From positions 1 to 64,000 of the forward strand of contig JABURQ010000048.1 of assembly GCA_014762625.1 (NCBI GenBank): DNA of 64,000 nt, written 5' to 3'. The notes beneath the pieces are model-generated. The model searched no databases and was not told the DNA's origin. It saw only the letters and a list, made by a program, of their open reading frames with translations. The position numbers were made by a program, and so were the translations under genes. Positions within the stretch are counted from its first letter, which is position 1; each line of letters opens with the position of its first letter. Origin of the DNA: Planctomycetaceae bacterium (lineage in GTDB: Bacteria; Planctomycetota; Planctomycetia; Planctomycetales; Planctomycetaceae). This document shows, one piece after another, positions 1 to 11,864 of the stretch.

Positions 1-239
1 TTGAAGAAAATTACTCCCGCGACGCAATCGTGATTGGTAGGTTCGGTGAGCAGCGCACCGACGAGCACATCGGAACCGCGCGGTTCGTTGATGACGGTCG
101 AGCGGAAATCGTCAAATTCGTCGCGAAATCGAAGCCGACGTTCTTTCAGCGATCCCGTGCCGAGATCGGGACCTCCCGCAATCACGGTTCGCGTCGGTTC
201 TCCCCCGGTATGGGAATCGATGACCTGAATCGAATTCAC
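1..239 (-). CDS. 4-hydroxyproline 2-epimerase (proline racemase family), 5' part only
   Basis: Reading leftward from a GTG at 239, the product begins [17 protein letters not shown] and continues with [13 protein letters not shown] and CAGVIFF before running off the window. These are hallmark N-terminal motifs of the proline racemase/4-hydroxyproline epimerase family, which interconverts trans-4-hydroxy-L-proline and cis-4-hydroxy-D-proline. About 79 residues are present of a usual length near 310. The two catalytic cysteines lie beyond the visible part, so epimerase cannot be separated from trans-3-hydroxyproline dehydratase by residues alone. An upstream in-frame GTG at 269 is possible, but the family starts just before the IDSHTGGE motif. 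It lies 43 bases downstream of a DapA-family gene on the same strand, which favours the hydroxyproline pathway. Confidence 0.85.
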
Positions 240-282: not shown

Positions 283-1188
283 TTAAGAGACCGAGAGTGC
301 GGGACGCGTTTCGATCCCTTTGCGAATGATTTCCAGAACTCGTTCGCGTTCTTCTCCCTCAAGCGGCAACCGCGGAGCGCGGGTCAATTCCGAACCGTAA
401 TCGCATTCCGCCACAGCCAGTTTGATGTATTGCACCAGTTTGACAAAGGTATCGAGGTGCAGGAGTGGTGTGTACCACTGGTACACTTCGCGAGCCTGCT
501 CGAAGTCTCCCGCTTGTAACAAATCCCAGAGCAATCGGTTCTCGTGAGGAAATGCGTTGACCAGACCGGAGACCCAGCCTTCAGCCCCCAGAATGAACGA
601 TTCCATCACCAGATCGTCCACGCCGCACAACAGCGTATAGCGATCGCCGCAGAGGTTGCGTAAATCAGTGATGCGGCGGGGGTTCTCGGACGATTCCTTA
701 ATGGCCACGAATTTCGGTTCGTCCGCCATGTCGGCGAACATTTCCGGAGTGATATCAACGCCGTAGGAGACCGGATTGTTGTAACACATGATCGGCAGGT
801 CGGACGACGAGGCGACCGACCGGAAATGATGCATTGTCTCGCGGGGGTCCGATTTGTAGACCATCGCCGGCAAGACCATCATGCCGTCCACACCGGCGGC
901 TTGAGCATCGGCGGCAAATCGACACGCCAGCGAAGTGGAGCATTCGGCGACCCCGGTCAAAACGGGGATTCGGCCATCGACGTGGTCCGCTGTTGTCTTG
1001 AGGACCTCCAGTTTCTCATCGTATGACAGAGAACAATTCTCCCCCACGGTTCCCAGCATGATGATGCCGTGGATTCCGGCTTCGATCATCTGATCGACAT
1101 GTGTCATCGTCGCGTCAAGATTCAGGGATTCATCATCGTGAAAATGAGTAACGGCAGCGGGATACACTCCGGTCCAGGCAGTGGTCAT
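283..1188 (-). CDS. DapA/DHDPS-family aldolase, probable 1-pyrroline-4-hydroxy-2-carboxylate deaminase
   Basis: The 301-residue product has the full TIM-barrel DHDPS/N-acetylneuraminate lyase pattern. It shows GTVGE at residues 46-50 (pyruvate/keto-acid carboxylate loop), Tyr136 in MCYNNP and the Schiff-base Lys164 in VAIKESS. Family members share this chemistry but use different substrates. Its place directly upstream of a 4-hydroxyproline epimerase suggests the enzyme that deaminates and dehydrates 1-pyrroline-4-hydroxy-2-carboxylate to 2-oxoglutarate semialdehyde. This is inferred from context. True dihydrodipicolinate synthase is less likely, because such genes usually sit with lysine genes and keep a GTTGE loop. 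It is divergent from a GntR-type regulator that probably controls it. Confidence 0.8.
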   Translation of the reverse strand: MTTAWTGVYPAAVTHFHDDESLNLDATMTHVDQMIEAGIHGIIMLGTVGENCSLSYDEKLEVLKTTADHVDGRIPVLTGVAECSTSLACRFAADAQAAGVDGMMVLPAMVYKSDPRETMHHFRSVASSSDLPIMCYNNPVSYGVDITPEMFADMADEPKFVAIKESSENPRRITDLRNLCGDRYTLLCGVDDLVMESFILGAEGWVSGLVNAFPHENRLLWDLLQAGDFEQAREVYQWYTPLLHLDTFVKLVQYIKLAVAECDYGSELTRAPRLPLEGEERERVLEIIRKGIETRPALSVS

Positions 1189-1283: not shown

Positions 1284-1306
1284 CATAAGTGACTTTGCAC
1301 TTTATG
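1284..1306. promoter_or_regulatory. Candidate operator, imperfect inverted repeat CATAAGTG-N6-CACTTTATG
   Basis: The AT-rich 209-bp divergent region between the DapA-family gene and the GntR-type regulator holds CATAAGTG (1284-1291) and CACTTTATG (1298-1306). These are inverted copies that differ by one inserted A. Size and position suit a dimeric winged-helix repressor, and the adjacent GntR gene is the obvious candidate. No binding data exist, and short inverted repeats arise by chance in AT-rich DNA. Confidence 0.35.
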
Positions 1307-1324
1307 TAAAATTAGTGAGATTTG

Positions 1325-1397: not shown

Positions 1398-2330
1398 ATG
1401 ACTATTACGGATTACATCCGTAGCGACCTGGCTCGGCGAATTCGGATCGGAAAAAACATTCCGGAGAAATTGACGCTCGCCGCTCTCGCGGATGAATATG
1501 AAGTCAGCCTGACACCGGTTCGGGAAGCGATCGGTTTGCTTCATGAAGACGGTCTGGTCCTCAAGGGGGAGAACCGACGTTTGATCGTGAACCCCCAACG
1601 GGTCGGCGAGAGCACGGAAGAGGAACTGGGTGCACCTCCCAAACCGATCGACTGGGAAAACGTTCTCACACAACACGTTCTTTATGAGAGCCTGCGCGGG
1701 TCGCAGGAGTTTCTGCGGGAAGAAGTGCTGACCGAACGTTACGGCGTCGGGCGGACGATTTTGCGTCAGGTCTTCAGCCATCTCGCCGGGAGCGGATTCC
1801 TGATCCACGAACCCCGTCGAGGCTGGCGGGTGCGTGAGTTGACCGACGACGACTTGCGCGACTACATCGACATTCGCGAAACACTGGAACTCAAGGCTTT
1901 GCAACTGGCGCTCCCTCATTTGCAGCAATCGCGATTGCAGGTCATTCTGGACGGGAACCAACCGGACGAACGCAACCGTCCTCAAATCGACAATAATCTC
2001 CACCGCTATTTTATCGGCCTGGCCGACAACCGTTATATCACCGAATTCTTCCAGCGGTACGGAGCGTTCTATCAACCGCTGTTCGATTACGCGGCGCTCG
2101 GGGGCGACGTCCTCGGGGAAATGGCCTCTCATCACCGTGAGATCCTGGAAAGTCTGATCAAAGGTGAGGAACAGCCGGCCCGCGAGGCACTCAGCCGCCA
2201 CATCCGCGCGCAATATTCCGCCGTCCTGAAAGTGATCGACAAACTCGACCTCCGAAACAACGACGGAGAGCCGATCGAAACTCACATCTCCGGCTTACCG
2301 GGAGAAAAAGACAAAGTGACGGAAGCGTAA
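1398..2330 (+). CDS. GntR-family regulator with FCD domain and a second winged helix
   Basis: This 310-residue regulator starts with a GntR winged helix (about residues 20-66, including LAALADEYEVSLTPVREAI). A second segment of similar build follows at about 90-147 (EEVLTERYGVGRTILRQVF, then GSGFLIHEPRRGWRV). Residues 150-280 look like an FCD ligand domain, with DIRETLELKALQLA and histidines in the NLHRYF, HHREIL and LSRHI segments that suit its metal/ligand site. Typical FadR/FCD regulators are 220-250 residues with one winged helix. It is divergent from the hydroxyproline-type genes and probably senses an intermediate of that pathway. The ligand is not known. Confidence 0.85.
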   Translation: MTITDYIRSDLARRIRIGKNIPEKLTLAALADEYEVSLTPVREAIGLLHEDGLVLKGENRRLIVNPQRVGESTEEELGAPPKPIDWENVLTQHVLYESLRGSQEFLREEVLTERYGVGRTILRQVFSHLAGSGFLIHEPRRGWRVRELTDDDLRDYIDIRETLELKALQLALPHLQQSRLQVILDGNQPDERNRPQIDNNLHRYFIGLADNRYITEFFQRYGAFYQPLFDYAALGGDVLGEMASHHREILESLIKGEEQPAREALSRHIRAQYSAVLKVIDKLDLRNNDGEPIETHISGLPGEKDKVTEA

Positions 2331-11195: not shown

Positions 11196-11864
11196 ATGAC
11201 CACGCTGACTGTTGAAAACTATCTGAAGTCGATTTTACAGCACGAACTGCAAACCGATGAGAACTTGATGTCGACCGGGAAAATCGCCGAAGCGATGGAG
11301 GTTTCCCCCGGTACCGTCACCAGCATGCTCAAAACATTAAGCGAATCCGGCCTGGCTGAGTACCGACCGTATGAAGGAGCCATTCTCACCGAGTCTGGAC
11401 GGAAGCTGGCGATGCGGATGTTGCGTCGTCACCGCTTGATCGAATTGTTTCTCGTCAAGACGCTCAATCTGACCTGGGATCAGGTCCACGAGGAAGCCGA
11501 GGATATGGAGCATTCGGTAAGCGACTTTCTCGTCGAGAAGATCGACGAGTTTCTCGGGCGTCCGCAATTCGATCCTCACGGCGATCCGATTCCCACTGAG
11601 GAAGGTGTCATGCGCGGCACCACGCGGGAGATAGTGACCCTGGCGAGTTGCCATCCCGGACAGAAATTTCGGCTCGCTCGGGTGACCGATCAGGAGGGAG
11701 AATTCCTGCGTTATCTCAGCGAGTCCAATTTGAACATCGATACGGAAGGGGTCGTCGAAACGCGGAACGTCTCAGGAGGCATCATGACGATCTCCATCGA
11801 GGACCAATCGCTGTCGCTGGGTTTAACGGCGGCGGAGTCGTTGCTGGTCGAAGCTCTCTCCTGA
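11196..11864 (+). CDS. DtxR/MntR-family metal-dependent regulator
   Basis: The 222-residue protein has an N-terminal winged helix (GKIAEAMEVSPGTVTSMLKTL) and a dimerisation/metal region with RRHRLIELFL and VHEEAEDMEHSVSD. These match the His, Glu and Glu-His ligands of DtxR/MntR. A C-terminal FeoA/SH3-like domain starts near residue 150 (GQKFRLARVTDQEGEFLRYL). Such proteins repress iron or manganese uptake genes when metal-bound. No metal transporter is adjacent, so the metal and targets are unknown. It follows pyrC by 109 bases and is convergent with the HtrA gene. Confidence 0.9.
   Translation: MTTLTVENYLKSILQHELQTDENLMSTGKIAEAMEVSPGTVTSMLKTLSESGLAEYRPYEGAILTESGRKLAMRMLRRHRLIELFLVKTLNLTWDQVHEEAEDMEHSVSDFLVEKIDEFLGRPQFDPHGDPIPTEEGVMRGTTREIVTLASCHPGQKFRLARVTDQEGEFLRYLSESNLNIDTEGVVETRNVSGGIMTISIEDQSLSLGLTAAESLLVEALS

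Follow-up and report, generated by a model that had tools for sequence, protein, structure and literature searches.

A GntR/FCD regulator with two predicted winged helices per chain and a predicted 28-bp family operator in Planctomycetota

The locus and the domains of the regulator

The window analysed here is a stretch of 64,000 nucleotides of contig JABURQ010000048.1 from a Planctomycetaceae bacterium. Near its start lies the gene of a tandem-winged-helix GntR/FCD regulator (1398..2330, + strand; 310 aa, ATG start). Divergent from it are a DHDPS-family gene (283..1188, − strand), whose neighbours point to a probable pyrroline-4-hydroxy-2-carboxylate deaminase, and the 5' portion of a gene that probably encodes a 4-hydroxyproline epimerase (3..239, − strand; NF052296, E 1.9e-29) and is cut by the contig end. 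A 28-bp operator is predicted between the two divergent genes, at 1286..1313. GntR regulators are among the commonest bacterial switches and are usually described as having a single head in each chain and two in the dimer.

The first-pass annotation of this gene had claimed a second HTH-like segment ahead of the FCD domain. A Pfam search with the whole 310-aa chain returned GntR twice and FCD once. Submitted alone, residues 1-73 matched GntR (PF00392) with 36.4 bits (E 4.2e-9) and residues 74-154 with 28.7 bits (E 1e-6), each passing the curated cut-off of 27 bits. An AlphaFold2 model, computed from an alignment of 60 sequences (mean pLDDT 91.1, pTM 0.80), displayed a helix-helix-helix-strand-strand unit in both segments: H3-17, H27-34, H38-50, E54-56 and E62-64 in the first, and H86-100, H108-115, H119-131, E135-138 and E142-145 in the second. 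In the PDB comparison, model residues within 1-77 resembled solved GntR-type winged helices of other proteins with Z scores of about 9 (for example GabR, 9.2 over 68 residues). The profiles of the two segments were aligned by hhalign with a probability of 96.5 (E 8.7e-10, 19% identity); by this comparison the two GntR segments of the chain are related yet diverged. The regulator is therefore predicted with high confidence to carry two winged helices, wHTH1 at residues 3-64 (1404..1589, + strand) and wHTH2 at residues 86-145 (1653..1832, + strand), the latter backed further by its covariation with bases −1 to −3 of the operator. Fold prediction and domain search thus bore out the earlier claim; the extents first given, residues 20-66 and 90-147, proved to be the domain cores. 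The reading of residues 90-147 as a mere linker was ruled out by the Pfam match of that segment alone, the matches in the family and the model.

The C-terminal part, residues 150-282 (1845..2243, + strand), is predicted to form an all-helical FCD domain of six helices. Pfam FCD (PF07729) matched residues 157-270 with 45.7 bits against a cut-off of 24.3, and the FCD region aligned to TM0439 with Z scores of 17-19. Model residues about 83 to 286 as a whole resembled FCD regulators that have a single winged helix (for TM0439, Z was 19.4 over 198 residues). The winged helix and FCD domain of the six-helix proteins TM0439, PmiR, AlkR, McbR/YncC and Atu1419 all aligned with the model, and the aligned ranges shown begin at model residue 80-85. 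These chains are 198-240 residues long (the TM0439 chain, 218), which leaves no room for a counterpart of model residues 1-80. The other two FCD proteins of the genome, whose open frames span 264 and 243 aa, have a single GntR match each; together with TM0439 they make the first-pass statement that usual FCD regulators are 60-90 residues shorter roughly right. With two winged helices per chain, the window regulator departs from the usual FadR/FCD form, which has one. Elsewhere in the window, a 235-codon open frame gave a weak GntR-like match at 11226-11381 (22.7 bits, under the cut-off).

The FadR/FCD metal-ligand pattern is present in the regulator, and metal binding is putative. The candidate ligands are D198, H202, H246 and H268, with a spacing similar to that of TM0439, whose metal ligands are given as His134, His174 and His196 with Asp130 (PMC6608401); the metal-site histidines of TM0439 are as in the window regulator. 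H202 and H246 were invariant in the 60 aligned members and H268 was conserved in at least 90%; D198 reached at least 90% in a set of 27 members and was not among the positions listed at that level in the 60.

A conserved family and its gene neighbourhoods

Of 99 related genomes, 22 contain between them 27 genes that match the regulator over nearly its full length. When the 84,980-species GTDB collection was scanned with one pattern, which falls in the second wing, 69 loci were obtained. By record title most belong to Planctomycetota and Verrucomicrobiota, with others from Lentisphaera, three Parahaliea species and a Spirochaetales bin; metagenome bins account for many of them. The alignment of 60 comprised the window protein and the 59 loci picked as full-length or nearly so, leaving out two with a stop in the stretch taken (L067, L081), six that were truncated (L119, L121, L122, L128, L129, L131) and two judged to be near relatives of members already included (L103, L118). 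The N-terminal segment alone and the middle segment alone each matched GntR (E ≤ 0.01) in all 60 members. By these matches, the tandem-winged-helix regulator is a conserved family. In Parahaliea (Gammaproteobacteria), the tandem regulator has a DAO-family gene nearby (L077, L082, L096), and one of these loci (L096) also holds distant DHDPS and epimerase homologues; horizontal transfer into the three species is possible.

A distant second tandem GntR-GntR-FCD lineage, with 26-28% identity, was represented by three genes (L058 2232-3194, L059 2587-3597 and L060 1820-2800). Relatives of it were matched in 5 of 149 related genomes in each of two scans, and a PRRGW wing is common to the two sequences compared. 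As a replicate of the operator search, the DNA upstream of a small set of seven genes of this lineage, some of them near-duplicates, gave no significant 28-bp palindrome.

The product of the divergent gene at 283..1188 belongs to the DHDPS/DapA family and scored under the equivalog cut-offs. DHDPS genes 70-88% identical to it adjoin five further relatives of the regulator, and in 6 of the 27 loci the regulator gene has a close DHDPS-family gene in divergent orientation; three of the six (L031, L032, L051) also have epimerase and D-amino-acid dehydrogenase genes and one (L035) the epimerase gene only. A piece that covers the remainder of the window's epimerase gene was located on another contig (C130:3024-3803), which also carries a D-amino-acid dehydrogenase gene (C130:1772-3016). 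In a congener, the epimerase reached 434 bits with the 4-hydroxyproline epimerase model (cut-off, 450), with DAO and DHDPS genes alongside. The arrangement recalls HypR of S. coelicolor, a GntR/FCD regulator whose gene likewise neighbours those of a hydroxyproline epimerase and a DHDPS-family deaminase; HypR is described as an FCD repressor of Streptomyces hydroxyproline genes with a zinc cofactor (PMC6608401). A HypR-like linkage of epimerase, deaminase and D-amino-acid dehydrogenase genes is present in the congener and in the window and C130 pieces. On this evidence the window regulator likely controls 4-hydroxyproline breakdown, the enzyme activities being predicted. Regulation of sialic-acid genes in the manner of NanR, hinted at by the aldolase family, was dropped, as epimerase and D-amino-acid dehydrogenase genes follow the DHDPS gene.

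In a second group of loci, a galactonate-type dehydratase gene, a DapA-like gene and a galactonate-transporter-like gene stand beside the regulator. Many tandem relatives have such neighbours, which invites comparison with DgoR, an FCD regulator for which a D-galactonate pocket containing metal and a pair of inverted repeats are described; a second winged helix goes unmentioned in the opening of the DgoR abstract (PMC7674646). Sensing of a carboxylate by an FCD domain that bears a metal would suit both the hydroxyproline and the sugar-acid setting. In the sugar-acid group (L043, L045, L054 and similar loci), the regulator also adjoins PSCyt1/DUF1549/DUF1553 and DUF1501 genes, with a weak ceramidase-like gene, under the cut-off, nearby.

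A predicted 28-bp operator of the family

We searched the 250-bp upstream regions of 77 members for a shared motif. Besides the window, the set took in 66 of the 69 loci, the other three having too little upstream DNA, and 10 more genes from related genomes. A palindromic ZOOPS search revealed about 55 sites of a nested palindrome 28 bp long, TAnTTGacTTTGtc|gaCAAAgtCAAnTA. The log-likelihood ratio of the palindromic EM model at width 28 was 903 bits, compared with at most 122 bits in ten dinucleotide-shuffled sets, each searched with fewer seeds. An unconstrained EM model recovered the same palindrome with 952 bits, the shuffle control applying to the palindromic model only. In leave-one-out scans, the upstream site ranked first in its own locus for 53 of the 77 members and lower in 24, so some members have a different operator or a different place for it. 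The matrices of the leave-one-out and hold-out scans were retrained, yet EM was begun from the all-data matrix.

The family consensus consists of a core, TTGT-n2-ACAA, and flanking TA.TTG boxes. The core agrees with the TKGT/ACMA pattern with a 2-3 nt gap that is given for GntR FadR/FCD operators (PMC4494728), a core operator type common to six-helix FCD regulators. The motif holds 12.1 bits of information inside ±7 and 13.6 bits outside, with the boxes symmetric on both sides and extending to ±14. The centre of many sites lies about 24 bp ahead of the start codon; the box spacing is kept among the higher-scoring sites, whose centres range from 23 to 124 bp ahead of it.

As a single-headed control we used 30 orthologues (L132-L161), from related genomes, of an FCD protein of the window genome with one winged helix; they went through the same procedure, their start codons placed approximately. 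About 25 of the 30 share a 14-bp motif, gATTcTATAgAATc, which is the predicted operator of that planctomycete family itself. It carries essentially zero information outside ±7 and has no flanking boxes, whereas for the tandem family, three subsets of 30 members drawn at random still gave a motif reaching ±14. The contrast between a 28-bp family operator and a 14-bp single-headed one provides independent and quantitative, if indirect, support for the idea that four heads of a putative dimer would fit nested repeats.

For the window itself, the matrix was retrained after the window and two congeners (L063 and L064) had been set aside. Over all 64 kb, 1286-1313 then scored highest, with 12.4 bits, and the runner-up reached 4.9. 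Compared with up to 36.4 bits in relatives, this is a weak, degenerate match to the family palindrome: its left half is good and its right half poor, and TTTG is kept in the left half only. The first-pass annotation had seen several nested inverted repeats in the divergent promoter region, which is partly right; 1286-1313 fits the family motif, and the longer inverted repeat 1325-1344/1359-1378 was dropped as an operator for its poor conservation in the two congeners. Both congeners have a second operator-like site (9.7-9.8 bits; L063 5042-5069 and L064 5044-5071), placed inside the deaminase gene by coordinate conversion; in L064 it scored 9.8 bits against 8.3 for the upstream site. No counterpart was found among the top 8 window sites.

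Assignment of the heads and competing explanations

For the 43 of 60 members with sites, we calculated the mutual information of each protein position with each base of the half-site, as raw values that ignore phylogeny and with half-sites that are not independent of each other. In the second recognition helix, residues 120, 119, 118 and 121 paired with bases −1, −3, −2 and −2, ranking 1, 2, 6 and 7 among all pairs scanned. Ranks 3-5 were taken by residue 136 (second wing) with −8, residue 45 (wHTH1) with −3 and residue 115 with −1; the ranking is not clean, as the pairs of residues 136 and 45 do not fit. The block mean Z was 2.27 for wHTH2-inner, 1.51 for wHTH2-outer, 1.54 for wHTH1-inner and 1.09 for wHTH1-outer, and the last is not above background in the 43 members. 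Single wHTH1-outer pairs did occur in the top 30 (residue 29 with −12, 12 with −13, and 14 and 15 with −8). An association of residue 60 with the outermost T (p 0.02) was one of several inspected and was given no weight.

Residue R119 (codon 1752-1754) falls, by alignment of the GntR pattern, at the position of FadR Arg45, which is listed as a specific Arg-G contact (PMC4494728). R119 is missing in 7 of the 60 members. Among the 39 members with sites that keep it, 75 of 78 half-sites have G at base −3; where it is lost and a site is present (four members, three of whose sites come from related Phycisphaerales), −3 is G in 1 of 8 half-sites and the outer G at −9 is retained in 7 of 8. With −3 masked in the scan, four of the seven R119-lost members had a site above shuffles (G in 1 of 8 half-sites) and the remaining three had none, and 51 of 70 other members scored at least 8 bits (G in 95 of 102 half-sites). 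Covariation thus supports a tie between the wHTH2 recognition helix and the inner operator bases. wHTH1, in contrast, has no equivalent of FadR Arg45, residue 38 being L, F and others, although S37, P40, R42 and L48 of its recognition region are invariant in the 60 and V36, V41, A44 and R61 are at least 90% conserved. The outer boxes are assigned to wHTH1 by elimination.

Computation supports the two winged helices, the conservation of the family, the 28-bp operator, the covariation of wHTH2 with the inner bases, and the operon. The best explanation of these as a whole, to which we assign a probability of roughly two in three, is an FCD repressor with four heads per dimer on a 28-bp operator of a hydroxyproline operon. 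An extra GntR winged helix would be placed ahead of the usual one in a metal-dependent FCD-type repressor, and dimerisation through the FCD domain would give four reading heads. The FCD-proximal wHTH2 heads would occupy the inner TTGT-n2-ACAA core, like ordinary FadR-subfamily regulators, and the N-terminal wHTH1 heads the flanking TA.TTG boxes, one dimer covering about 28 bp. In the window it would bind at 1286-1313, between the regulator gene and the divergent operon (deaminase, epimerase, D-amino-acid dehydrogenase), and would leave the DNA once a pathway carboxylate binds the FCD metal site. The first-pass proposal that four heads per dimer fit the nested repeats gains support from the family operator and the wHTH2-inner covariation. 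Several results count against this explanation: the missing Arg45 equivalent and background-level outer covariation of wHTH1, the poor right half of the window site, the 24 members whose upstream site ranks lower, the L064 site inside the deaminase gene, and the second tandem lineage with its lack of a significant palindrome. Ordinary GntR regulators are also reported to have extra boxes beside their palindromes (PMC4494728), and the HypR motif discussed below points the same way.

The stronger competitor, which we regard as unlikely, holds that only wHTH2 reads DNA, that wHTH1 serves packing or oligomerisation, and that two side-by-side dimers cover the 28 bp. It agrees with the missing base-reading Arg of wHTH1 and the background-level wHTH1-outer covariation, and published accounts describe a tetrameric Atu1419 and a multi-dimer NanR (PMC7797058, PMC8012715), and a 26-bp palindrome of additional symmetry for the HutC-type SdhR (PMC4494728). 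However, the conserved recognition residues of wHTH1 were judged to suit DNA contact better than packing, and flanking boxes are absent from the single-headed control. It is doubtful, to a clearly greater degree, that the outer boxes are read by wHTH2 (through its wing or neighbouring residues) or are a promoter element or the site of another factor, unrelated to the extra domain: their TTGAC, which we take to resemble a −35 hexamer, many sites near 24 bp before the start codon, where other constraints act, and the residue 136/−8 pair speak for this, but the boxes are symmetric to ±14 and, in the higher-scoring sites, constant in spacing across the range of centres, and a sigma-70 scan of 1100-2450 found no promoter-like site.

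HypR bears on the same question. S. coelicolor HypR is reported to bind CTNTGC(A/C)ATGTCAC, a 14-nt motif of unclear symmetry (PMC6608401), whose ATGTCAC is similar to the outer part of the tandem-family site and also counts for the wHTH2 or promoter account; the motif resembles one half of the tandem-family operator, which is a 28-bp palindrome. By residue numbering HypR is judged to be single-headed (metal His142/186/208, versus 202/246/268 in the window regulator). This suggests that a single-headed protein can read part of the tandem-family operator.

In the openly accessible journal literature searched, titles and the opening lines of abstracts contained no description of a GntR regulator with two winged helices. 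We lean towards viewing the tandem family as a widespread double-headed GntR branch in which each dimer would read four nested half-sites at once. The extra winged helix would double the operator, 14 bp becoming 28 bp, inside a single molecule that would stand in for the cooperative oligomers of other GntR regulators. To our knowledge, few regulators have been characterised in Planctomycetota and Verrucomicrobiota, and the operator matrix is supplied for their gene clusters for sugar acids and hydroxyproline. With its predicted operator of double length, a conserved branch with two heads offers a natural test of how DNA-reading domains get added and of how operator length tracks the number of heads.
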